Shown here piece after piece: positions 1 to 12,200 of a stretch of 64,000 nt of DNA; position 1 is the stretch's first letter; every line of letters begins with the position of its first letter. The notes below the pieces were generated by a model, which had not been told where the DNA came from, searched no databases, and worked only from the letters and a program-made list of their open reading frames with translations. The translations under genes were made by a program, and so were the position numbers. The stretch is from Hippopus hippopus. Taxonomy: Eukaryota; Mollusca; Bivalvia; Cardiida; Cardiidae. Where the stretch lies: NCBI GenBank assembly GCA_946811185.2, contig OX328100.1, forward strand, positions 19,642,999 to 19,706,998, given 5' to 3'.

Positions 1-375
1 TCCGGCATTTAGATACTCTTGGAGAGCCTCACGTAGTTGATGATTTACCTCCTCCGTATTGATACTGCTTCCGAATATTGACACTGCTTTCGAAGTGATC
101 GTTAGCTGAGAGCCAAAAATGGTGAATGTATGAAAATAACGCCGAGCTTTATACGTTTACTGAGGATTGAAATTTTTTAAAGAGCTCGGACCTGGCAGAA
201 AGCACATACATTTTTCCATGCTACGTTTCATGCTAATATAGCAAAAAAGTTATGAGACGCTGTATGGAAAAAATGTAGACAGAACAAGTCTTTGGGGAAA
301 AACAGAATGATGAGCTCTATTGTTTTTGAATTTTTATTTTATTGAACTTTTATTTACTGAACAGAACTAAACAAT

Positions 376-706
376 GAATCATTTTTTTGCAATGCATCAT
401 AAAAAATTTTCTTGACAATGAAAAAATTTCTTGACAATGAAAAAATTCACAATGAAACATTTTTTTTGCAAAGCATCATAAAAAATTTCTTGACAAAGAA
501 AAAAATCACAAGGAAACGTTTTTACAATACAGCATAAAAAACAATTTCTTAGCAATGAAAAAATCACACTGAAACATTTTTTACAATACAGCATAAAAAC
601 AATTTCTTAACAATGAAAAAAATCACACTGAAACATTTTTTACAATACAGCATAAAAACATTTTCTTAACAATGAAAAAATCACACTGAATTATTTTTTC
701 ACAATG
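376..706 (-). repeat. AT-rich tandem repeat, left arm
   Basis: Five to six degenerate units of about 55-65 bp are built on TTTTTACAATACAGCATAAA and AATGAAAAAATCACA. This is the mirror of 6540-6870. It lies just downstream of the 102-codon ORF in its reading direction. The ORF seen inside it is translated repeat and is not called. Confidence 0.8.
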
Positions 707-726
707 AATTATTCGCAAATAATTTT

Positions 727-1035
727 TTACAATGCAAATTCACAAATACCACGAGTTTCACATTTGTTTTCATATTCCGTAATGTCTTTATGCAATTGGT
801 CATACCCCAAAAACATTGTATACTCACTGTCCATATCGTCGAAATCTCGTAGTCCTATGAATGTAGCAACATGTCTATAAGCGTCTTTTGTTGAAAGAGC
901 TGAATTCACAACTTCTTCTGTAACATCTCTATCAAATAGAATATACCCTGACATGGATTCCATTGTTTCTCCGTAGGAATCATGAACAGATCCTTTTTTG
1001 TACCGTAAGTAAAAGTCAAATAGAACTGATTTCAT
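727..1035 (-). CDS. Hypothetical 102-aa protein, left-arm copy
   Basis: An ORF of 102 codons starts at an ATG (1035-1033) and ends at the stop before the AT-rich repeat. It is identical in design to 6211-6519 in the right arm. The product starts MKSVLFDFYLRYK and ends CETRGICEFAL, is acidic, and has no membrane segment or signal peptide. I do not recognise a family. It follows the point where polymerase homology stops and is in another frame, so it may be a separate small gene or a diverged remnant of the polymerase. Expression is unproven. Confidence 0.45.
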   Translation of the reverse strand: MKSVLFDFYLRYKKGSVHDSYGETMESMSGYILFDRDVTEEVVNSALSTKDAYRHVATFIGLRDFDDMDSEYTMFLGYDQLHKDITEYENKCETRGICEFAL

Positions 1036-1045
1036 TTTCACAACG

Positions 1046-2460
1046 TTAAGAAAACTTTCTTCTATTGATCCTATGATAAAAAATGTCCATTGACTTGTGG
1101 ATCGAAACAGTTTCGGGTTTGTAATAAGACATATCCAAGTAAGGTCCAATGTAACTCCAAAATTCATCTGTATTTGCCCAGTGAGGGAAGTAACCTTTTT
1201 TATTTTTTTGAAGACCAAATATGGCTGGAAATTTTGCCAAACCAAAGCTCATGAAATTGAAAGAATCGACCAGACGTACACCATTCAGTTCTAACTTCAT
1301 AATATTGTTTCCATTCATGATAAATTTTGGAAGTTTTAACCCAACTTTGACAATATAGCCAAGAATGAACTGACCGTCATAACCTTTGAAATTATGGGCA
1401 ATAGCCGTGACTCCTTTATGATGTTTTGAAAAGAGCCACTTGCAAAATTGACTCAAAGTTTCTTCACCTTGAAAAATAACTTCCCTACCCTCTTCAAATT
1501 CACTGCATGTAGAACAATGAAAATCAAGTGATTTATCGATACATTCATCACATGCTCTGTGTGCAATACAATAATTCGGGATGTGTACACCTGTGTCTTG
1601 TTTGCATTCAAAATCAAAGAAAATAAACTGTGGTTTTTTGACTACAGAAGAACTCGTCTCGTCATCGCTGTCATGGTTCAACGTACTTTGGTAAGGCTGA
1701 ATATAGCATCGATAAAAAAAAGTTAACAATTTTCTTACAGATATGACACCTTTTCTTTCCATTGCAAACATGATTTTTCTTTCTGACAAGATATTGCACA
1801 CCACATTTTGAACAGAGTTTCACTAATTCACAAATGGATTTCTTTTCTCTACCTTGAACAATTCTGTGATTTTCAAAGCATTCAGCACTAAAAAATCGTC
1901 TACTGCAATAACTGCAAACATTTTCTTTTGAATCTGATGGACATTTTCCTTTGCGGTAACAACCTTTGCAGATAATTGAACAAGCATGACTTTCCCGGTG
2001 AGAGTAACCCACATCACAGAACTCACAATAATATCACAACAAAAAACTTTGATAGATTGATGTAGTCATAATGGTTTTGATGAAAGTACAAATGTATGAT
2101 CTTACTATTGTTTTTCACTTCTGGATGTTCAAATATTTTTTCCACTTTTGAATGCTGTTGATGAACTTTAATGACATAGCCTTTTTCATACAAGAATGCT
2201 TGAATTTTTTTGTATTCGTCAATTCCTACAGGTTGTGTTGGTGAAACTCCAGCTTCATTCAACAATTTCTCAGCTTCAGTCTTTTGAAGAGGGCGGTTTG
2301 AACGACAAATACGATCCCATTTTCTATTCCATGCCCCGGTGTTTTCACGTTCACTGTAGCAAATTCCCACAACAACGGCTCTTGCAGAACATAGTTGGTC
2401 ATGATTGCCAATTTGAATAATGGATTTTTTCTTCTGGGCAAAAAACTTTGATTCGAGCAT
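1046..2460 (-). pseudogene. Protein-primed-type family-B DNA polymerase, N-terminal/exonuclease part, left copy (broken)
   Basis: Read on the minus strand, the segment has an N-terminal domain, then a cysteine-rich stretch of several CxxC pairs, then a 3'-5' exonuclease. Exo I is FFDFEC, and an Exo II-like segment is HNFKGYDGQF. This layout is known from PolB of Polinton/Maverick and adintovirus-like elements. Coding is broken by frameshifts near 2035 (before the cysteine-rich part) and near 1715 in a T-run. Homology stops after the exonuclease around 1095. The palm and thumb are absent here, so no active polymerase can be made. The same breaks occur in the right-arm copy. Confidence 0.8.
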
Positions 2461-2480
2461 TTCAATCTATTGTTCAGAAA

Positions 2481-2645
2481 TCAAAACGAAAACCTTTCGC
2501 CGAGATCTTTGTATGGCTGCGTTATACGTTGTAGTTGGTTTTGTTCCTCCTCTCCTACGAAATGAGTGTTTAGTTGTAATAACTGTTGACGTGCATTTAG
2601 ATATTCTTGGAGAGCCTCGCGTAGTTGATAATTTATCTCCTCCAT
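2481..2645 (-). pseudogene. Truncated coiled-coil ORF, third copy, fused to the polymerase arm
   Basis: The ORF starts at an ATG (2645-2643), reads MEEINYQLREALQEYLN, and matches the ORF at 7189-7455 for about 48 residues. At 2499/2500 the match ends and the sequence enters the inverted-repeat arm, adding a few unrelated residues before a stop. The conserved C-terminal cysteine motif of the family is lost. Unlike the two arm copies, this one keeps ATG where they have ACG. It probably shows the ancestral start of the gene. Confidence 0.65.
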
Positions 2646-2756
2646 ATTGATACTGCTTCCGAATATTGATACTGCTTCCGAATATTGATACCGCTTTCGA
2701 AGTGTTCGTTCGCTGAGTGTCAAAAAATGATGAATGTATGGAAATAACGCTGGGTT

Positions 2757-2940
2757 TTTATACGTTTAAGGAGGATTGAAATTTTTAAAGAGCGCGGACC
2801 TGACGGGAAACACCAGGATTGTACTGTGTGACACTGAGTTAGGAGTGGTAAAAACAGCATGAAACGCCGACGTGGGAAAAAACATAGGAAAAAATGACGT
2901 CATGAGTCAATCAGTTCAATCCTCCTGTAAAGCTATAAAA
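2757..2940. promoter_or_regulatory. Divergent promoter pair with TATA-CCCAGCG cores and a CRE
   Basis: On the minus strand TATAAAA (2763-2757) is followed by ACCCAGCG and drives toward the ATG at 2645. On the plus strand TATAAAA (2934-2940) is followed by CCCAGCG and points to an ATG at 2980 that runs straight into the assembly gap. A perfect TGACGTCA lies at 2895-2902, and GTGGGAAA precedes it. The plus-strand half is closely similar to the promoter at 7870-7970, so the gene in the gap may be related to the one at 8014. Confidence 0.6.
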
Positions 2941-2986
2941 CCCAGCGATATTTTTACATAAAATCATATTTGTTCCAGTATGGTTC

Positions 2987-3186
2987 NNNNNNNNNNNNNN
3001 NNNNNNNNNNNNNNNNNNNNNNNNNNNNNNNNNNNNNNNNNNNNNNNNNNNNNNNNNNNNNNNNNNNNNNNNNNNNNNNNNNNNNNNNNNNNNNNNNNNN
3101 NNNNNNNNNNNNNNNNNNNNNNNNNNNNNNNNNNNNNNNNNNNNNNNNNNNNNNNNNNNNNNNNNNNNNNNNNNNNNNNNNNNNNN
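2987..3186. other. Assembly gap (200 N)
   Basis: Exactly 200 undetermined bases, a typical scaffold placeholder of unknown true length. It separates the contig with the left arm from the contig with the right arm. It truncates the zinc-knuckle ORF and an ORF starting at 2980. Confidence 0.99.
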
Positions 3187-3631
3187 GTTCTTTGTTACTC
3201 GTTTTTTCTTCTTTTCGTTGTTTTGCTTTTTTCTCCTCTTTTAGATCCAAAGTTTGTTGTTTTCTTAGATTATCGCTTGTAGATAATTTTTTCTCTGCCT
3301 GTTCTGTTATTTTGCAGATTTTTGAATCGGTGATATCCGTTGTGTCGGACTGCATGTCTACGGTCTGATTTTCAACCGGTGATATTGTAGTCTGTAGTGA
3401 ACTTGTTTTCCATGTATTTTCGTTGTAGAATGAATTTAGTGTCCCGACGAATTTCGTATGTTGGAGATCGACAACGTTGTAAAACGATGGTGAAATTTCG
3501 ATGTCATGACTGTGTGGGTTCACGTAGACAAAAAACAAATGTTCCTGTCTGATTTTCTTTTTTGGACAATTTCTGGACCAATGTCCTGCTTTGTTGCACG
3601 TAAAACAAATATTTGTTCTCTCACCATTCAT
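3187..3631 (-). CDS. CCHC zinc-knuckle protein, C-terminus lost in gap
   Basis: The ORF starts with an ATG at 3631 and carries CFTCNKAGHWSRNC near residues 9-22, a CX2CX4HX4C knuckle that binds zinc and usually nucleic acid. The rest is hydrophilic and ends in a lysine/glutamate-rich stretch (EEKKAKQRKEEK) that the gap interrupts. Upstream codons are open past the ATG, but a TATAAATAG box at 3704-3696 favours this start. The knuckle resembles those of retroviral Gag and of cellular CNBP-like proteins. No Gag capsid or protease is visible, so I treat it as a gene of the virus-like element with unknown function. Confidence 0.55.
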
Positions 3632-3684
3632 CCCATATCGTTTGTCGAGCGTCGCTTGATCTAAAACTCTGTAGCTGATAGTAC

Positions 3685-3851
3685 AGCGTATAGAGCTATT
3701 TATAAAAAAATACGCTTCACTACTAGACGCTGACGTAGTGTACCTCTACCCAATGGTCTATTTATAGCAACAGACGCTAACATATTGTGATTTAACCCCT
3801 TGTCACACTAAACGGCGTTTCCACTGAGTTGACACGGTGTTGTTTAAGTTC
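3685..3851. repeat. Promoter-like direct repeat, copy 1
   Basis: About 165 bp, repeated in the same orientation at 4575-4734. It contains two CTATTTATA boxes (3696-3704 and 3758-3766, TATAAATAG on the minus strand) and ends GTTGTTTAAGTTC. Copy 1 sits between the zinc-knuckle ORF (leftward) and the polymerase palm fragment (rightward). Copy 2 sits before the polymerase N-terminus. It is likely the native promoter of the polymerase gene, or a bidirectional promoter. Confidence 0.75.
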
Positions 3852-4290
3852 CCAGACTGCCAAGAGATCGCAGAAAAAATGCGAAGCTCCCGTGGCCTAT
3901 TATCGCGTTCCTGATGTTGATGAAAAAAAAAGCAAGAAGGAAATCAAGTACATTGATATCTGTTCTCTGTACCCTTATGTTTGTAAACACAAATCCTATC
4001 CTGTAGGTCAGCCAGAAATTTTGTCTGCTGAGAATATTGACATGAACAATATTCGACAATATGAGGGCTTAATCAAATGCAAAGTTTTGCCTCCAACTGA
4101 TTTGTTTCACCCCGTTCTCCCAGTTCACTGTAACAACAAAATGATGTTTCCACTCTGTATGAAATGTGCAGAAGAAAGTTCAAGTATTTGTAGCCATGGT
4201 GAAGAAAAGAGGGCTTTGGTCGGAACTTGGGTTACTTTTGAATTATTCAAGGCTCTTGACTGCGGTTATCGATTATTGCAAAGTAAAAAA
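3850..4290 (+). pseudogene. Family-B DNA polymerase palm fragment
   Basis: The segment reads through IDICSLYP, the motif A of family-B polymerases with its metal-binding aspartate, and about 100 further palm residues including KALDCGY. It then passes into unrelated sequence and a stop. Motifs B and C are absent. It begins abruptly after the promoter-like repeat and lacks the exonuclease that should precede it. It is therefore a displaced internal piece of the gene whose N-terminal part lies at 4785-6150. Confidence 0.75.
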
Positions 4291-4574
4291 GTTAAAAGTA
4301 GAAAAAGTCAAAAGTCTCTCTTATATAGGTCTAGATCTACATGCAGTGAGAAAATATTCCCGTAAAATGGTCTTTACAAGTGTGTGAACCAATAATTATT
4401 CCAAGTTATTTTTCTTGACATAAATTAACGAAAGTGTCAAGGAACTGTCTTTCTTTTGTTAAGGAAATCAGGGATATTCACCCTATTTCACATGTACAAA
4501 TCTACGAAAGAAAAAATGCTTTCTACTTTTGACAACGCTCAAAATTCGAACTCACACCTTTTTTATATTAGTTA
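4291..4574. other. Non-coding stretch after the palm fragment
   Basis: AT-rich sequence with short AAAAGT-type repeats at its start. I see no ORF, stem-loop or recognisable element. Confidence 0.5.
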
Positions 4575-4734
4575 AGCGTATAGAGGTATTTATAAAAAAG
4601 CTTTACTAGACGCTGACGTAGTGTACCTCTGCCCAATGGTCTATTTATAGCAACAGACGCTAACATATTGTGATCTATGCCTCTGTCACACTAAACGGCG
4701 TTTCCACTGAGTTGACACGGTGTTGTTTAAGTTC
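4575..4734. repeat. Promoter-like direct repeat, copy 2
   Basis: Second copy of 3685-3851 with small indels. It ends about 50 bp before the ATG (4785) of the polymerase N-terminal segment, consistent with being that gene's promoter. Confidence 0.75.
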
Positions 4735-4784
4735 ACAGAGTACCAACAAAGGTTTTCGTTTTGATTTCTGAACAATAGATTGAA

Positions 4785-6200
4785 ATGCTCGAATCAAAGT
4801 TTTTTGCCCAGAAGAAAAAATCCATTATTCAAATTGGCAATCATGACCAACTATGTTCTGCAAGAGCCGTTGTTGTGGGAATTTGCTACAGTGAACGTGA
4901 AAACACCGGGGCATGGAATAGAAAATGGGATCGTATTTGTCGTTCAAACCGCCCTCTTCAAAAGACTGAAGCTGAGAAATTGTTGAATGAAGCTGGAGTT
5001 TCACCAACACAACCTGTAGGAATTGACGAATACAAAAAAATTCAAGCATTCTTGTATGAAAAAGGCTATGTCATTAAAGTTCATCAACAGCATTCAAAAG
5101 TGGAAAAAATATTTGAACATCCAGAAGTGAAAAACAATAGTAAGATCATACATTTGTACTTTCATCAAAACCATTATGACTACATCAAATCTATCAAAGT
5201 TTTTTGTTGTGATATTATTGTGAGTTCTGTGATGTGGGTTACTCTCACCGGGAAAGTCATGCTTGTTCAATTATCTGCAAAGGTTGTTACCGCAAAGGAA
5301 AATGTCCATCAGATTCAAAAGAAAATGTTTGCAGTTATTGCAGTAGACGATTTTTTAGTGCTGAATGCTTTGAAAATCACAGAATTGTTCAAGGTAGAGA
5401 AAAGAAATCCATTTGTGAATTAGTGAAACTCTGTTCAAAATGTGGTGTGCAATATCTTGTCAGAAAGAAAAATCATGTTTGCAATGGAAAGAAAAGGTGT
5501 CATATCTGTAAGAAAATTGTTAACTTTTTTTTATCGATGCTATATTCAGCCTTACCAAAGTACGTTGAACCATGACAGCGATGACGAGACGAGTTCTTCT
5601 GTAGTCAAAAAACCACAGTTTATTTTCTTTGATTTTGAATGCAAACAAGACACAGGTGTACACATCCCGAATTATTGTATTGCACACAGAGCATGTGATG
5701 AATGTATCGATAAATCACTTGATTTTCATTGTTCTACATGCAGTGAATTTGAAGAGGGTAGGGAAGTTATTTTTCAAGGTGAAGAAACTTTGAGTCAATT
5801 TTGCAAGTGGCTCTTTTCAAAACATCATAAAGGAGTCACGGCTATTGCCCATAATTTCAAAGGTTATGACGGTCAGTTCATTCTTGGCTATATTGTCAAA
5901 GTTGGGTTAAAACTTCCAAAATTTATCATGAATGGAAACAATATTATGAAGTTAGAACTGAATGGTGTACGTCTGGTCGATTCTTTCAATTTCATGAGCT
6001 TTGGTTTGGCAAAATTTCCAGCCATATTTGGTCTTCAAAAAAATAAAAAAGGTTACTTCCCTCACTGGGCAAATACAGATGAATTTTGGAGTTACATTGG
6101 ACCTTACTTGGATATGTCTTATTACAAACCCGAAACTGTTTCGATCCACAAGTCAATGGACATTTTTTATCATAGGATCAATAGAAGAAAGTTTTCTTAA
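4785..6200 (+). pseudogene. Protein-primed-type family-B DNA polymerase, N-terminal/exonuclease part, right copy (broken)
   Basis: The ATG at 4785 opens the N-terminal domain, followed by a cysteine-rich domain (CKGC, CSYC, CSKC, CHIC) and the exonuclease with FFDFEC and HNFKGYDGQF. Frame changes occur near 5214 and in the eight-T run at about 5525-5532. A third break after DMSYYKPE (about 6135) ends the polymerase homology. The breaks at 5214 and in the T-run are shared with the left copy, so they predate the duplication or both copies are the same locus assembled twice. Family assignment rests on motif order and the CYIQP-type segment before the exonuclease. Confidence 0.8.
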
Positions 6201-6210
6201 CGTTGTGAAA

Positions 6211-6519
6211 ATGAAATCAGTTCTATTTGACTTTTACTTACGGTACAAAAAAGGATCTGTTCATGATTCCTACGGAGAAACAATGGAATCCATGTCAGGG
6301 TATATTCTATTTGATAGAGATGTTACAGAAGAAGTTGTGAATTCAGCTCTTTCAACAAAAGACGCTTATAGACATGTTGCTACATTCATAGGACTACGAG
6401 ATTTCGACGATATGGACAGTGAGTATACAATGTTTTTGGGGTATGACCAATTGCATAAAGACATTACGGAATATGAAAACAAATGTGAAACTCGTGGTAT
6501 TTGTGAATTTGCATTGTAA
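6211..6519 (+). CDS. Hypothetical 102-aa protein, right-arm copy
   Basis: ATG at 6211 and stop at 6517-6519; identical in layout to the left-arm ORF at 727-1035. It is acidic, soluble-looking and of unknown family. It lies directly after the broken polymerase and before an AT-rich repeat. No own TATA box is obvious. Confidence 0.45.
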   Translation: MKSVLFDFYLRYKKGSVHDSYGETMESMSGYILFDRDVTEEVVNSALSTKDAYRHVATFIGLRDFDDMDSEYTMFLGYDQLHKDITEYENKCETRGICEFAL

Positions 6520-6539
6520 AAAATTATTTGCGAATAATT

Positions 6540-6870
6540 CATTGTGAAAAAATAATTCAGTGTGATTTTTTCATTGTTAAGAAAATGTTTTTATGCTGTA
6601 TTGTAAAAAATGTTTCAGTGTGATTTTTTTCATTGTTAAGAAATTGTTTTTATGCTGTATTGTAAAAAATGTTTCAGTGTGATTTTTTCATTGCTAAGAA
6701 ATTGTTTTTTATGCTGTATTGTAAAAACGTTTCCTTGTGATTTTTTTCTTTGTCAAGAAATTTTTTATGATGCTTTGCAAAAAAAATGTTTCATTGTGAA
6801 TTTTTTCATTGTCAAGAAATTTTTTCATTGTCAAGAAAATTTTTTATGATGCATTGCAAAAAAATGATTC
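6540..6870 (+). repeat. AT-rich tandem repeat, right arm
   Basis: Units of about 55-65 bp with TGTGATTTTTTCATTGTTAA and TTATGCTGTATTGTAAAA; mirror of 376-706. Confidence 0.8.
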
Positions 6871-7091
6871 ATTGTTTAGTTCTGTTCAGTAAATAAAAGT
6901 TCAATAAAATAAAAATTCAAAAACAATAGAGCTCATCATTCTGTTTTTCCCCAAAGACTTGTTCTGTCTACATTTTTTCCATACAGCGTCTCATAACTTT
7001 TTTGCTATATTAGCATGAAACGTAGCATGGAAAAATGTATGTGCTTTCTGCCAGGTCCGAGCTCTTTAAAAAATTTCAATCCTCAGTAAAC

Positions 7092-7098
7092 GTATAAA
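7092..7098 (+). promoter_or_regulatory. TATA box (TATAAAG) of the coiled-coil ORF
   Basis: GTATAAAGCTCGGCG is a diverged form of the TATAAAACCCAGCG core found at 2757-2763, 2934-2940 and 7958-7964. It lies about 95 bp before the ORF start. A mirror copy is at about 148-154. Confidence 0.5.
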
Positions 7099-7188
7099 GC
7101 TCGGCGTTATTTTCATACATTCACCATTTTTGGCTCTCAGCTAACGATCACTTCGAAAGCAGTGTCAATATTCGGAAGCAGTATCAAT

Positions 7189-7455
7189 ACGGAGGAGGTA
7201 AATCATCAACTACGTGAGGCTCTCCAAGAGTATCTAAATGCCGGACAGCAGTTATTGCAACTAAACACTCATCTCGTAGGAGAGGAAGAACAAAACCAAC
7301 TACAACGTATAACACAGCCATACAAAGATCTCGGCGAAAGATTAGTTCAACTATTATTAAAGACAACACCGGATATCATCTTGGTTGATATCGAATTTGG
7401 AAGGAAGATTACAGCATGCCCCATTTGCCAAGCGAATTTCGGGTGCTGCCATTAG
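7189..7455 (+). CDS. Short coiled-coil protein with C-terminal Cys motif; start codon mutated
   Basis: The open frame encodes about 88 residues: an amphipathic, glutamine/leucine-rich N-terminal half (LREALQEYLN...QQLLQLN), a hydrophobic segment, and a C-terminus reading CPICQANFGCC. The expected start is ACG (7189-7191) where the third copy at 2645 has ATG, and no in-frame ATG precedes it. The gene is intronless. A histone-type stem-loop follows 35 nt after the stop. The C-terminal C-P-x-C-x4-G-C pattern is shared with the next small gene (8014-8247). Family unknown; the virus-like element is the likely owner. It may be a pseudogene if ACG cannot initiate. Confidence 0.5.
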   Translation, partial: TEEVNHQLREALQEYLNAGQQLLQLNTHLVGEEEQNQLQRITQPYKDLGERLVQLLLKTTPDIILVDIEFGRKITACPICQANFGCCH

Positions 7456-7489
7456 AAGTGGAAAAAACACAGCCTCCAAAAAACAAAAC

Positions 7490-7505
7490 AGCCCTTTTCA
7501 GGGCT
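7490..7505 (+). terminator. Histone-type mRNA 3' stem-loop 1
   Basis: AGCCCT-TTTC-AGGGCT is a perfect 6-bp stem with a TTTC loop, followed by ACCCA and, about 12 nt on, ACGAAAG. This matches the replication-dependent histone mRNA stem-loop (bound by SLBP) and a U7-type downstream element. It sits 35 nt after the stop of the 7189-7455 ORF. Confidence 0.8.
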
Positions 7506-7613
7506 ACCCATCTACCACGAAAGTTCTATCTTCAAGATGCCAGACGAAAGTTCTATCTTCAAGCTGTCAGACGAAAGTTCTATCTTCAAGTTGTCATTTC
7601 TTGAAATTGTCAC

Positions 7614-7653
7614 AGCTCTTTTCAGAGCTAACGCAACAGTCCTTTTCAGGACT
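7614..7653 (+). terminator. Histone-type stem-loop pair 2
   Basis: Two perfect stem-loops: AGCTCT-TTTC-AGAGCT (7614-7629) and AGTCCT-TTTC-AGGACT (7638-7653), each followed by AAC. ACGAAAG lies 10-16 nt downstream. Stem bases differ between the two loops while pairing and the loop are kept. Confidence 0.8.
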
Positions 7654-7896
7654 AACCATTACCACGAAAGTTCTATCTTTCTTCAAAATTGTCAAAACTC
7701 AAAATTGTCAAAAACTCAAAAGATTTACAATCAAAAAAAGTCATAGATTAGTCAAACTCTAGTTTTTTCTAACCCGAACAAGAAAATGTAACAAACCCAC
7801 GGATTGGCCAACAATAAAACATTTAGTATTAGAAATAAAACGCTGATTCTGATTGGATAACATTAATTTGGAGCCAAAACAGCATGAAACGCCGAC

Positions 7897-7982
7897 GCGG
7901 GAAAAACATAGGAGAAAATGACGTCATGGGTCAACTAGTTCAATCAGTCTGAAAAGCTATAAAACCCAGCGTCATTTCCCGC
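7897..7982 (+). promoter_or_regulatory. Promoter with E2F-like sites, CRE and TATA box
   Basis: GCGGGAAA (7897-7904) and TTTCCCGC (7975-7982) match the E2F consensus in both orientations. TGACGTCA (7919-7926) is a perfect CRE palindrome. TATAAAA (7958-7964) is followed by CCCAGCG, and the ATG is at 8014, about 50 bp downstream. E2F plus CRE plus TATA is the layout of S-phase-linked promoters; use by E2F is inferred. Confidence 0.6.
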
Positions 7983-8013
7983 ACATCGTTCATTCTCTTC
8001 AATTTACTGCAAT

Positions 8014-8247
8014 ATGGAGTGTGCTTTGAGAGATATGAGCTTCAGCGAGCTTGCGCAGCTGTCATCCAAAAAAAAGATGGACGCCAAGAAGAAGGAGTTT
8101 GTCGTACCATCGACAGAAGATTGGAACGATGACGCTGAGCCTTCGTTCTCGTTGGACTTTGGGTTGGGTGAACAGCAGTTGAAGAGGTTAAAGAGGCGAT
8201 CAGCAAGTAGCTGCCCAGCCTGCAGAAAGGTTGGAGGTTGTGCTTAA
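8014..8247 (+). CDS. Small intronless basic/acidic protein (77 aa) with C-terminal Cys motif
   Basis: ATG at 8014 and stop at 8245-8247. The product begins MECALRDMSFSELAQLS, has a lysine-rich segment (residues 19-29), an acidic middle, a basic KRLKRRS stretch and the C-terminus SCPACRKVGGCA. The C-P-x-C-x4-G-C ending is shared with the 7189-7455 product, suggesting a common C-terminal module, perhaps metal-binding. The TATA box lies 50 bp upstream. Two histone-like stem-loops begin 20 nt after the stop. I do not recognise the family. The KRLKRR stretch could be a nuclear signal (inference). Confidence 0.65.
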   Translation: MECALRDMSFSELAQLSSKKKMDAKKKEFVVPSTEDWNDDAEPSFSLDFGLGEQQLKRLKRRSASSCPACRKVGGCA

Positions 8248-8260
8248 AAACACAACCTCC
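8233..8260 (+). other. Perfect 10-bp hairpin enclosing the stop codon
   Basis: GGAGGTTGTG (8233-8242) pairs with CACAACCTCC (8251-8260) around an 8-nt loop that contains the TAA stop. It directly precedes the histone-type stem-loops. Confidence 0.7.
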
Positions 8261-8266
8261 AAACCA

Positions 8267-8307
8267 GGTCCTTTTTTAGGACCACCCCAACAGCCCTTTT
8301 CAGGGCT
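8267..8307 (+). terminator. Histone-type stem-loop pair 3 (after the 77-aa gene)
   Basis: GGTCCT-TTTTT-AGGACC (8267-8283), with a 5-nt loop and followed by ACCCCA, is a slight variant. AGCCCT-TTTC-AGGGCT (8292-8307) is canonical. ACGGAAG follows about 12 nt later. Distance from the stop and the order stop, stem-loop, purine-rich element are those of replication-dependent histone genes. Confidence 0.8.
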
Positions 8308-8467
8308 AACCATCTACCACGGAAGATCTACCTTTCTTCAAATTGTCAGACGTAAGTTCTATCTTTTCTTCAAATTGTCATTTCTTCAAATTGTCAGACG
8401 AAAGTTCTACCTTCAAGCTGTTAGACGAAAGTTCTATCTTCAAGTTGTCATTTCTTCAAATTGTCAC

Positions 8468-8507
8468 AGCTCTTTTCAGAGCTAACCCAACAGTCCTTTT
8501 CAGGACT
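8468..8507 (+). terminator. Histone-type stem-loop pair 4
   Basis: AGCTCT-TTTC-AGAGCT (8468-8483) and AGTCCT-TTTC-AGGACT (8492-8507), with CGAAAG about 14 nt downstream. Confidence 0.75.
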
Positions 8508-8615
8508 AACCATCTACCCCGAAAGATCTATCTTCAAGATGTCAGACAAAAGTTCTATCTTCAAGCTGTCAGACGAAAGTTCTATCTTCAAGTTGTCATT
8601 TCTTCAAATTGTCAC

Positions 8616-8655
8616 AGCTCTTTTCAGAGCTAACTCAACAGTCCTTTTCAGGACT
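8616..8655 (+). terminator. Histone-type stem-loop pair 5
   Basis: AGCTCT-TTTC-AGAGCT (8616-8631) and AGTCCT-TTTC-AGGACT (8640-8655), with ACGAAAG downstream. Confidence 0.75.
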
Positions 8656-8762
8656 AACCATTACCACGAAAGATCTATCTTCAAGATGTCAGACGAAAGT
8701 TCTACCTTCAGGCTGTCAGACGAAAGTTCTATCTTCAAGTTGTCATTTCTTGAAATTGTCAC

Positions 8763-8802
8763 AGCTCTTTTCAGAGCTAACCCAGCAGTCCTTTTCAGGA
8801 CT
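8763..8802 (+). terminator. Histone-type stem-loop pair 6
   Basis: AGCTCT-TTTC-AGAGCT (8763-8778) and AGTCCT-TTTC-AGGACT (8787-8802), with ACGAAAG downstream. Confidence 0.75.
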
Positions 8803-8929
8803 AACCATTACCACGAAAGTTCTATCTTTCTTCAAAATTGTCATTTCTTCAAATTGTCAAACTTCTTTTAGAAGAGATGCACTCCAAAAGAGTTATACTC
8901 CAGAGAGTTATACTGCAAAGAGTAAAAAA

Positions 8930-11705
8930 ACTCAGAAAAAGACTAAGTCCAACCCAGTGCTCAGTCTTTTAGAAAGAAAAAATCATTCATAATTGCAGAA
9001 AAAGACTAAGTCCAACTCAGTGATTAGGCATTTAGAAAGAGAGAAAATCATTCATAGGGTAAAAAAAGTCTTAAGTCGAACTCACTGATATAGGGACAAA
9101 TTCCTTTTAGAGAGAAAAAATCATTCATAGATAAGAAAAAAGTCTAAGTTCAACTCAATGATATAGGGACAAATTCCTTTTAGAAAAGAGAAATCATTCA
9201 TAGATGCAAAAAAAAACTAAGTACAACTCACTGATTAGGCAATTAGAAAAGAGAAATCATCCATAGGGTGAAAAAAACTAAGTTCAACTCAATGGTCAGG
9301 CTTTTAGAAAGAGAGAAAATCATTCATAGGGTGAAAAAACTAAGTACAACTCACTGTTATAGGGACAAAATCCTTTTAGAGAGAAAAATCATTCATAGGA
9401 TGAAAAAAGCTAAGTTCGACTCAATGGTCAAACATTTAGAGAGAAGAAATCATCCATAGATAAGAAAAAAGTCTAAGTCGAACTCACTGATATAGGGACA
9501 AATTCCTTTTAGAGAGAAAAAATCATTCATAGATAAGAAAAAAGTCTAAGTCGAACTCACTGATATAGGGACAAATTCCTTTTAGAAAAGAGAAATCATT
9601 CATAGATGCAAAAAAAAAACTAAGTACAACTCACTGATTAGAAAAGAGAAATCATCCATAGGGTGAAAAAAACTAAGTCCAACTCAATGGTCAGGCTTTT
9701 AGAAAGAGAGAAAATCATTCATAGGGTGAAAAAACTAAGTACAACTCACTGTTATAGGGACAAAATCCTTTTAGAGAGAAAAATCATTCATAGGATGAAA
9801 AAAGCTAAGTTCGACTCAATGGTCAAACATTTAGAGAGAAGAAATCATCCATAGATAAGAAAAAAGTCTAAGTCGAACTCACTGATATAGGGACAAATTC
9901 CTTTTAGAGAGAAAAAATCATTCATAGATAAGAAAAAAGTCTAAGTTCAACTCAATGGTCAGGCTTTTAGAAAGAGAAATCATTCATAGGGTAAAAAAGT
10001 CTAAGTTCAACTCAATGGTTAGGCATTTAGAAAAGAGAATTCAATCATAGGTGAAAAAACTAAGTCCAACTCAGTACTCAGGCATTTAGAGAAATCATTC
10101 ATAATTGCAGAAAAAGACTAAGTCCAACTCAGTGATCAGGCTTTTAGAAAGAAAATCATTCATAGGGTAAAAAAAGTCTAAGTTCAACTCCATGTTCAGA
10201 CATTTAGAAAGAGAAATCATCCATAATTGCAGAAAAAACTAAGTCCAACTCAATGTCCAGGCATTTAGAGAGAAAAAATCATTCATAATTGCAGAAAAAG
10301 ACTAAGTCCAACTCAGTGATCAGGCTTTTAGAAAGAGAAAAAATCATTCATAGATAAGAAAAAAGTCTAAGTTCAACTCAATGGTCAGGCTTTTAGAAAG
10401 AGAAATCATTCATAGGGTAAAAAAGTCTAAGTTCAACTCAATGGTTAGGCATTTAGAAAAGAGAATTCAATCATAGGTGAAAAAACTAAGTCCAACTCAG
10501 TACTCAGGCATTTAGAGAAATCATTCATAATTGCAGAAAAAGACTAAGTCCAACTCAGTGATCAGGCTTTTAGAAAGAAAATCATTCATAGGGTAAAAAA
10601 AGTCTAAGTTCAACTCAATGTTCAGACATTTAGAAAGAGAAATCATCCATAATTGCAGAAAAAGACTAAGTCCAACTCAGTGATCAGGCTTTTAGAAAGA
10701 AAATCATTCATAGGGTAAAAAAAGTCTAAGTTCAACTCAATGTTCAGACATTTAGAAACTAGAAAGAGAAATCATCCATAATTGCAGAAAAAGACTAAGT
10801 TCAACTCAATGTCCAGGCATTTAGAAAGAAAATTCATTCATAGATGCAAAAAAAAACTAAGTACAACTCACTGATTAGGCAATTAGAAAAGAGAAATCAT
10901 CCATAGGGTGAAAAAAACTAAGTTCAACTCAATGGTCAGGCTTTTAGAAAGAGAGAAAATCATTCATAGGGTGAAAAAACTAAGTACAACTCACTGTTAT
11001 AGGGACAAAATCCTTTTAGAGAGAAAAATCATCCATAGGGTGAAAAAAAACTAAGTTCGACTCAATGGTCAAACATTTAGAGAGAAGAAATCATCCATAG
11101 GGTGAAAAAAGTCTAAGTCGAACTCACTGATATAGGGACAAATTCCTTTTAGAGAGAAAAAATCATTCATAGATAAGAAAAAAGTCTAAGTTCAACTCAA
11201 TGGTCAGGCTTTTAGAAAGAGAGAAAATCATTCATAGGGTAAAAAAACTAAGTCCAACTCAGTGATCAGGCAGTTAGAAAGAGAAAAAATCATTCATAGG
11301 GTGAAAAAACTAAGTCCAACTCAATGTCCAGGCATTTAGAGAGAAAAAATCATCCATAGGGTGAAAAAAACTAAGTCCATCTCAGTGATCAGGCATTTAG
11401 AAAGAGAAAAAAATCATCCATAGGGTGAAAAAAACTAAGTCCAACTCAATGTCAAAGCATTTAGAAAGAAAAAATCATACATAGGTGTAGAAAAACTAAG
11501 TCCAACTCAATGGTCAGACTTTTAGAAAGAGAGAAAATCAATCATAGGGTGAAAAAACTAAGTCCAACTCAATGTCAAAGCATTTAGAAAGAGAAAATCA
11601 TACGTAGGCGAAGAAAAAACTAAGTCCAACCCAGTGATCAGGCTTTTAGAAAGAGAGAAAAATCATTCATAGGGTGAAAAAACTAAGTCCAACTCAGTGA
11701 TCAGG
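8930..11705 (+). repeat. Minisatellite, about 60-65 bp unit, with higher-order structure
   Basis: Roughly 45 units are built on AAAAACTAAGTCCAACTCA, a variable GTGATCAGG or ATATAGGGACAAA block, TTTTAGAAAGAGAAAATCAT and TCATAGGGTG. Larger blocks recur: about 9210-9460, 9600-9860 and 10850-11100 are near-identical, as are about 9950-10200 and 10375-10620. This shows repeated block duplication. There are no genes. It begins right after the stem-loop array. Confidence 0.9.
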
Positions 11706-12200
11706 CCTGACAGATCCCTATAGAGCACTCGAAGATGTATCATTTTTGGTCCCCCTCCCCCCCTTTCCCTTTTTTGCAGAAAAATTCCACTCAGGGACGA
11801 GAGCCTGGCTAATTTTTTCGCCAGACTGTCAGTCACAAGGCCGCCATTTTGAATGCTAAACCCCTCTCAGGGACGAGAGCCTAGCTAAAATAAAAAATGC
11901 AAATTCTTTCAGGAGGACAAACTAGCCCACATTTTTGTCAGGGGTGGTGATGTAGCCCACTCAGGGAAGAGAGCCTGGCGAACTACCCCTGGCCTGGGTA
12001 GTTCGCCAGGCTCTCTTCCTTTACTACTAACATGTTTTCAACATCATTTCAGTTTTGTTTCGGCGGCCCGTTCTTCTGTCCATCTTTCCAAGATTTTTCT
12101 CTACCAGTTATGTTTTCCAAGCTCCTGCTTGATTTCCCTCTTCCCTGAAGAAATTTCGTCGAAAGGAATGAGTCCTGTCACAATGATTTTTATCAATCCT
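11706..12200. repeat. Short dispersed repeats and a perfect 24-bp hairpin
   Basis: Three copies of CTCAGGGA(C/A)GAGAGCCT occur near 11790, 11865 and 11960. The third forms a perfect hairpin: 24 bases at 11965-11988 pair with 11996-12019 around a 7-nt loop. A C-rich run lies at about 11750-11766. I see no coding. Confidence 0.7.

Follow-up and report, generated by a model that had tools for sequence, protein, structure and literature searches.

The 64-kb window analysed here (the whole stretch of 64,000 nucleotides, C5:19642999-19706998 of the 1.07-Gb, 34-contig genome of Hippopus hippopus) carries part of a multicopy Polinton-like element, most of whose small genes read here (designated by letters) are followed by short hairpins of the kind found at the 3' ends of replication-dependent histone mRNAs. 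Judged from sequence comparisons, these hairpins are very probably working histone-type 3'-end signals that the element uses for its small genes. They recur across the genome, match the 3' ends of the host's own histone genes, are conserved between old and young copies of the element, and are present after some of its genes and absent after others.

Hairpins, downstream motifs and host histone genes

A scan of the window identified ten hairpins with a perfect 6-bp stem and a UUUC loop, all on the + strand within 7490-8802 (Table 1), together with one more at 8267, whose loop consists of five U residues and which is perhaps a decayed first hairpin. This bore out the count given in an earlier note on this DNA (eleven 6-bp stems, ten with the exact UUUC loop). 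The string TTTTCAGRRCT occurs 10 times in the window, compared to 0.41 expected from shuffles. Three stem sequences are present (AGCCCU, AGCUCU and AGUCCU), each fully paired and with the differences among them found on both sides of the stem. All ten UUUC hairpins possess a G at stem position 2, which the search for them required; according to PMC10388802, SLBP requires a G at position 7. Six of the ten lie within a 147-bp tandem array (8383-8828), and the set therefore does not represent ten independent events.

A CGAAAG-like element was found 11-12 nt past the stem of six of the ten hairpins (five exact, with CGGAAG after the hairpin at 8292). The claim that CGAAAG follows all ten failed for those at 7614, 8468, 8616 and 8763, where a second hairpin starts 8 nt later. 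A placement of the hairpins 20-35 nt past gene stops was correct for the one at 7490 (34 nt) and approximately so for that at 8267 (19 nt), but not for that at 8292 (44 nt) or for the rest, which lie further away. A second downstream motif, AATTGTCA, has 19 matches in the window, 11 of them at 7605-8859. Among pieces of the element, 142 paired hairpins were collected, 91 of which are single in that no second hairpin follows immediately. Exact CGAAAG was found after 67 of these 91 (shuffled mean 0.16), CGAAAG together with variants picked post hoc after 90, and ATTGTCA after 42 (shuffled mean 0.18). In the copies compared of genes A, B, C, young D and F, CGAAAG is situated 12 nt and ATTGTCA 32-34 nt past the stem.

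Searching the genome with the canonical pattern GGYYYTTTTCARRRCCAC gave two matches (19 for the reversed control), one being a solitary H2A gene with CGAAAG at +11 and ATTGTCA at +30 past the stem, scoring 37.9 bits with the Rfam model Histone3 (RF00032). With the protein of this gene as query, 71 matches were obtained in the genome; a tandem cluster on C15 (C15:40573168-41456989) accounts for 63, nearly all of which have like scores. In one unit of this cluster, H2A was found to have a UUUA loop, CGAA at +11 and ATTGTCA at +32 (33.5 bits), and H1 a UUUC loop and ATTGTCA at +29 (30.0 bits). Host ends overall, in a comparison consisting of these three genes (with H2B, H3 and H4 outside it), thus possess CGAA in two of three cases and ATTGTCA in all three, 29-32 nt past the stem. 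The 3' architecture of histone genes that had been proposed for the element is supported by this, the three host genes sharing hairpin, spacing and downstream motifs with it, and the hairpins are read as candidate users of the host SLBP/U7 route. ATTGTCA at 29-34 nt past the stem is common to the three host genes (loci L110, L114 and L115) and many element hairpins; to our knowledge it does not feature in accounts of the histone downstream element.

Recurrence, conservation and distribution among genes

The pattern RGYYYTTTTCARRRCYAMC, which does not require stem pairing, gave 15,448 matches in the genome (7,760 + 7,688) compared to 5 (0 + 5) for its reversed control; among 100 of these places, all on C1, 99 were within 10 kb of another. 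A search with gene B gave 1,781 candidates, and in the best-scoring 150, a favourable sample, 149 were without an internal stop and many formed inverted pairs approximately 8-13 kb apart, so that gene B lies in both end repeats of those copies. Twenty gene B copies, hand-picked from + strand matches to span identity classes, were fetched, and every one was found to carry at least four fully paired hairpins after the stop, with AGCCCU-UUUC-AGGGCU situated 44-45 nt past it in 19. Capture of a histone cluster as the source of the hairpins, raised in the earlier note as a case that would overturn its proposal, was not supported: they lie in a dispersed element after several unrelated non-histone genes, with the host cluster elsewhere, on C15.

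Conservation was assessed by comparing a single old copy against young ones. For gene C (73% protein identity, synonymous divergence (dS) saturated) and gene D (48% protein identity, dS approximately 1.1), all 16 of 16 hairpin bases were found to be kept, together with a large part of the downstream element, whereas the sequence from the stop up to the hairpin was less alike. Gene B showed a nonsynonymous divergence of 0.35 and a dS of approximately 2.3 where defined (undefined for 12 of 22 pairs). Among 22 young copies of gene B (dS undefined for some pairs), the hairpin and downstream stretch were near invariant, with the five-U hairpin being the least conserved stretch of the 3' untranslated region. 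When sites were chosen by loop and flanks (a rule that excludes the AGCUCU class, with one site counted twice), 96 of 104 were found to form all six pairs.

The presence of a hairpin after each gene was tabulated from small pieces of several element copies, each annotated separately. A full hairpin no more than 80 nt past the stop was identified for genes A (3/3 copies), B (2/3), C (2/2), D (2/2), G (1/1) and F (1/2), the distance being 27-45 nt in A, B, C, D and G and 79 nt in old-copy F. No hairpin was found after the gene for DNA polymerase B (PolB; 0/2), gene H (0/3) or the zinc-knuckle gene (0/2) in the 359-500 nt inspected downstream. In the genes examined, the orientation of the hairpin is the same as the reading direction of the gene. 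The signals had been assigned to two tiny intronless genes. Gene B is open, but gene A of the window has ACG in place of ATG and is probably not translated normally here, and the assignment understated the scope of the signal, which follows most of the small genes read. As had been stated, no histone fold was recognised: Pfam (E up to 1) gave no histone family for A, B, C, D, F or G, and a PDB sequence search with A and B gave nothing better than E 0.04. In a protein search outside this genome, gene B had one relative (P0001, 77% identity over 68%) and gene A none. Genes A (7189-7455) and B (8014-8247; L064 1818-2120) have a C-terminal CPxC...GC tail in common, and old gene B possesses an additional N-terminal stretch; on these grounds, the two genes may be distant paralogues.

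With six of the ten window hairpins in a 147-bp tandem array, and with arrays that follow gene B near both ends, the hairpins could be regarded as a satellite-like repeat, perhaps captured once from a histone gene and carried as a passenger without a role at mRNA ends. Such a repeat would not be expected to lie 27-79 nt past the stops of five or six unrelated genes, with none found after the polymerase, H and zinc-knuckle genes, nor to have stayed the same in old and young copies of genes C and D and to be followed by a layout like that of host histones, making this explanation highly improbable.

Proposed route of expression

If the hairpins act as histone-type signals, transcripts of genes A, B, C, D and G (and of F in the old copy) would be cut just downstream of the hairpin, with SLBP bound to the hairpin and the U7 small nuclear ribonucleoprotein (snRNP) guided by the downstream stretch, namely CGAAAG, perhaps with ATTGTCA. 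PMC7026596 places cleavage of histone transcripts 4-5 nt past the stem, with U7 pairing to the downstream element, and PMC6210712 describes, for the bivalve Lucina pectinata, histone mRNAs with hairpins and with purine-rich elements in some genes only, at varying distances. The products would be short intronless mRNAs without poly(A), abundant in S phase. Gene B was found to be the outermost gene, reading outward at both ends with the hairpin arrays after it; these arrays may serve as repeated fail-safe sites against read-through. The polymerase, H and zinc-knuckle genes, having no hairpin, would be polyadenylated. Tentatively, and with somewhat less than even confidence, the element may thus produce two classes of mRNA, with small regulatory or structural genes on the histone pathway tracking host S phase and replication genes polyadenylated.

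Poly(A)-type hexamers are rare after gene B, with none of the 20 copies having one in the first 500 nt (5.3 expected) and one of 20 in the whole stretch (9.0 expected), in copies that are related and so not independent; for most hairpin genes, 90-290 nt of downstream sequence was covered. AATAAA was found 200-372 nt after gene H in 3/3 copies and after the zinc-knuckle gene in 2/2 (one frame end uncertain). These were considered as a sign of a second, polyadenylated class of transcripts and rejected as such, hexamers being expected there by chance. Because the chance of a hexamer is high in this DNA, polyadenylation of H and the zinc-knuckle gene is something that we infer, as we do for PolB.

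Hexamers (AATAAA or ATTAAA) further downstream of some hairpin genes, and arrays near both ends that could be protein-binding sites, would also be in keeping with hairpins that function by another route, whether by simply terminating transcription, by affecting the stability of polyadenylated mRNAs or by serving at the DNA level as sites for the element's own replication or integration proteins. A generic terminator or DNA site would have no need of a loop, flanks and two spaced downstream motifs like those of host histones; in addition, the hairpin reads with the gene in the genes examined and hexamers fall below chance after gene B. This explanation is considered improbable.

A link to S phase is suggested by the promoter of gene B in young copies, in which two E2F-type sites (TTTCCCGC) were identified within 233 bp; none of 200 first-order resamples had two or more. 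The two are among the three sites in the window matching TTTSSCGC. Both were found in 16 of 20 gene B copies and one in 3 more (in copy L039 an upstream ATG was taken as the start, leaving the promoter outside the scoring), and young genes C and D possess one site each, with one further off in young F. The promoter also holds TGACGTCA, which is present at five other places too. It is possible, though rather unlikely, that the histone-type ends are real but allow genes without introns to be expressed independently of poly(A), for instance in germ cells or in early embryos, without coupling to host DNA replication. Such a lack of coupling would fit the distribution of E2F-type sites, which precede B, C, D (and F) in the young copies but neither gene A nor any of the five old genes tested; the paired sites in the gene B promoter and their retention among its copies argue against it.

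Several observations weigh against the hairpins being working histone-type ends that track S phase. Rfam gave no match in the window at the gathering score; below it, RF00032 gave 28.5 bits at 7485-7529 and 18.9-22.7 bits at five other places, the best of these falling short of the 34-bit gathering score. As two of the three host histone ends are also under this score, 28.5 bits is no strong objection, and the gathering score of a general model was not taken to exclude a host-type end; the covariance-model check proposed in the earlier note was negative at threshold and positive below it. The closing pair of the stem is A-U in the element compared to G-C in the three host histones, and host H1 has no CGAA. 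Among the single hairpins, 49 of 91 are without ATTGTCA; gene G has neither an exact CGAAAG nor ATTGTCA, and old D has no CGAAAG. The G at stem position 2 is lost in 6 of the 104 flank-defined sites, in the hairpin of the third gene B (old copy) one pair is broken, and young-copy F has no hairpin within 500 nt. The U7 profile RF00066 gave no match in the genome, a result that is uninformative because it also gave 0/14 in control genomes, and a U7 pattern search gave 337 matches compared to 187 for its control, with no convincing candidate among the 30 inspected. Hexamers do occur past some hairpins (window gene A at 357 and 378 nt, G at 143 nt, old B at 314 nt and one of the 20 B copies at 577 nt), the chance of at least one hexamer after PolB, H and the zinc-knuckle gene is 0.46-0.94 in such A+T-rich DNA, and the hexamer of PolB sits inside gene H. 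E2F-type sites are not in excess in the window as a whole (3 compared to 3.2 expected), are absent upstream of gene A (3 copies), window gene C and five old genes, and include one ahead of young F, which has no hairpin.

About half of the listed U7-pattern matches derive from a repeat, TCTTTCGATTGATTCCATTTTATCTAG, found at C1:2165594, C1:3637793 and other places (L065, L066), which resembles the U7 5' end followed by an Sm-like site. It was rejected as a U7 gene, its tail folding weakly and the resemblance probably being due to chance. Two copies lie inside genomic hairpin clusters.

The carrier element and known systems

A comparison between the window and the left flank (L095) served to place the ends of the element. 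The two arms of a perfect inverted repeat of approximately 2.5 kb (1-2497 and 4748-7245, recovered as two pieces) enclose a central part that includes 200 N; taken with its outer flank, the window copy has the appearance of a fold-back rearrangement, or else of an assembly that was joined at this gap. Both ends of the window copy are present, with outer flanks that share no target duplication. In a copy on C4, the end string recurs and CGCGGT stands on each side, a 6-bp target duplication, which is typical of Polintons; the string was not found in flank pairs from C17, C2, C16 and C11, only C4 of the five pairs holding it. A long array of 62- to 73-bp repeats (8966-11706) lies between the hairpin array and the element end.

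PolB of the window copy is in pieces matching PF03175, and in pieces of other copies it is open across 800 codons (PF03175, E 1.5e-45 in copy L061). A protein search outside this genome gave 48 relatives of PolB, the named ones including Holothuria, Ostrea, Crassostrea and Lottia. Among the open reading frames (ORFs) tested, from the element pieces read, Pfam and PHROGs identified polymerase B, zinc knuckles and otherwise weak matches only (such as gene C with a PHROG terminase family, E 0.0066), and no integrase, capsid, ATPase or protease was recognised. The description of the element as Polinton-like is thus upheld by PolB, the terminal inverted repeats and the 6-bp target duplication of one copy, but not by an integrase or capsid gene. 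In IMG/VR, the canonical hairpin pattern gave no match, its A-U variant gave 11 matches, none of which is paired, and the PolB queries had no relatives; phage records gave no match.

Table 1. Features identified in the window (positions are those of the 64-kb stretch)
Feature	Position	Strand	Remarks
Element part in window	1..12028	.	CCTTTACTACT marks the right end, at 12028; the left end lies beyond the window at C5:19638218
Zinc-knuckle gene (zf-CCHC)	2954..3745	-	Interrupted by N gap
Gene C, probable start, ATGGTTC	2980..2986	+	Cut by 200-N gap 2987-3186
DNA polymerase B fragment (PF03175), palm part	3796..4365	+	
DNA polymerase B fragment (PF03175), exonuclease part	5475..6200	+	Mirrored 1046-1771 (-)
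Gene H, part	6079..6519	+	No hairpin within 500 nt downstream; AATAAA at 6892, 6903, explicable by chance
Gene A frame, ends CPICQANFGCCH	7189..7455	+	ACG where copies L053 and L057 have ATG
Hairpin AGCCCU-UUUC-AGGGCU	7490..7505	+	Follows gene A; RF00032 match, below gathering score
CGAAAG downstream element, for 7490 hairpin	7518..7523	+	More copies 7545, 7572, 7665
Hairpin AGCUCU-UUUC-AGAGCU	7614..7629	+	First member of tandem pair
Hairpin AGUCCU-UUUC-AGGACU	7638..7653	+	Second member of tandem pair; CGAAAG 11 nt downstream
Gene B promoter	7897..7982	+	E2F-type TTTCCCGC at 7897 (-), 7975 (+); TGACGTCA at 7919; TATA at 7958
Gene B, 77 aa	8014..8247	+	Open; acidic stretch, KR-rich stretch, CPACRKVGGCA tail
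Hairpin GGUCCU-UUUUU-AGGACC	8267..8283	+	Past gene B stop
Hairpin AGCCCU-UUUC-AGGGCU	8292..8307	+	Past gene B stop
CGGAAG variant, for 8292 hairpin	8320..8325	+	
Second downstream motif AATTGTCA	8341..8348	+	
CGAAAG, further copies	8399, 8426, 8520, 8574, 8667, 8694, 8721, 8814		
Array hairpin AGCUCU-UUUC-AGAGCU	8468..8483	+	
Array hairpin AGUCCU-UUUC-AGGACU	8492..8507	+	
Array hairpin AGCUCU-UUUC-AGAGCU	8616..8631	+	
Array hairpin AGUCCU-UUUC-AGGACU	8640..8655	+	
Array hairpin AGCUCU-UUUC-AGAGCU	8763..8778	+	
Array hairpin AGUCCU-UUUC-AGGACU	8787..8802	+	

In a literature search that covered few subscription journals, no mobile element or DNA virus was found to be described as having histone-type ends; the earlier note had likewise known of none for Polinton-like elements. 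If the signals work as proposed, parasites would be able to enter the histone mRNA pathway, and to do so via several unrelated genes, providing a natural experiment, on genes other than those of histones, in what the hairpin confers by itself. Expression of the element could be tied to host DNA replication. With approximately 15,000 hairpin sites, the element could also offer SLBP and U7 more substrate than the host histone genes do and compete with those genes; at such a number, competition with histone mRNA processing becomes open to test.

A predicted match to Histone3 (RF00032) in a virus, of 14.7 bits and within the nsp3 coding sequence of SARS-CoV-2, is given in PMC7786107. It is similar in being a virus sequence that matches this family and differs in that it is a single match in an RNA virus, situated within coding sequence instead of at the end of a gene. 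With Polinton/Maverick elements and adintoviruses, the element shares a type B DNA polymerase of the protein-primed type (PF03175), long terminal inverted repeats and, in one copy, the 6-bp target duplication; it differs in that no retroviral-type integrase, capsid, ATPase or protease was recognised in the tested ORFs and in the histone-type ends of its small genes. Compared to the 3' end of replication-dependent histone mRNA (RF00032), the differences are that the genes are non-histone genes of a mobile element, that the closing pair is A-U, that several consecutive hairpins follow gene B and that the score lies below the Rfam gathering score. What the two have in common is a 6-bp stem with a UUUC loop, a G at stem position 2 (in the ten window hairpins) and A/C-rich flanks; the genes are short and lack introns, and past the stem come a downstream element, after 11-12 nt, and the ATTGTCA seen in host histone genes, at much the same distance as there.

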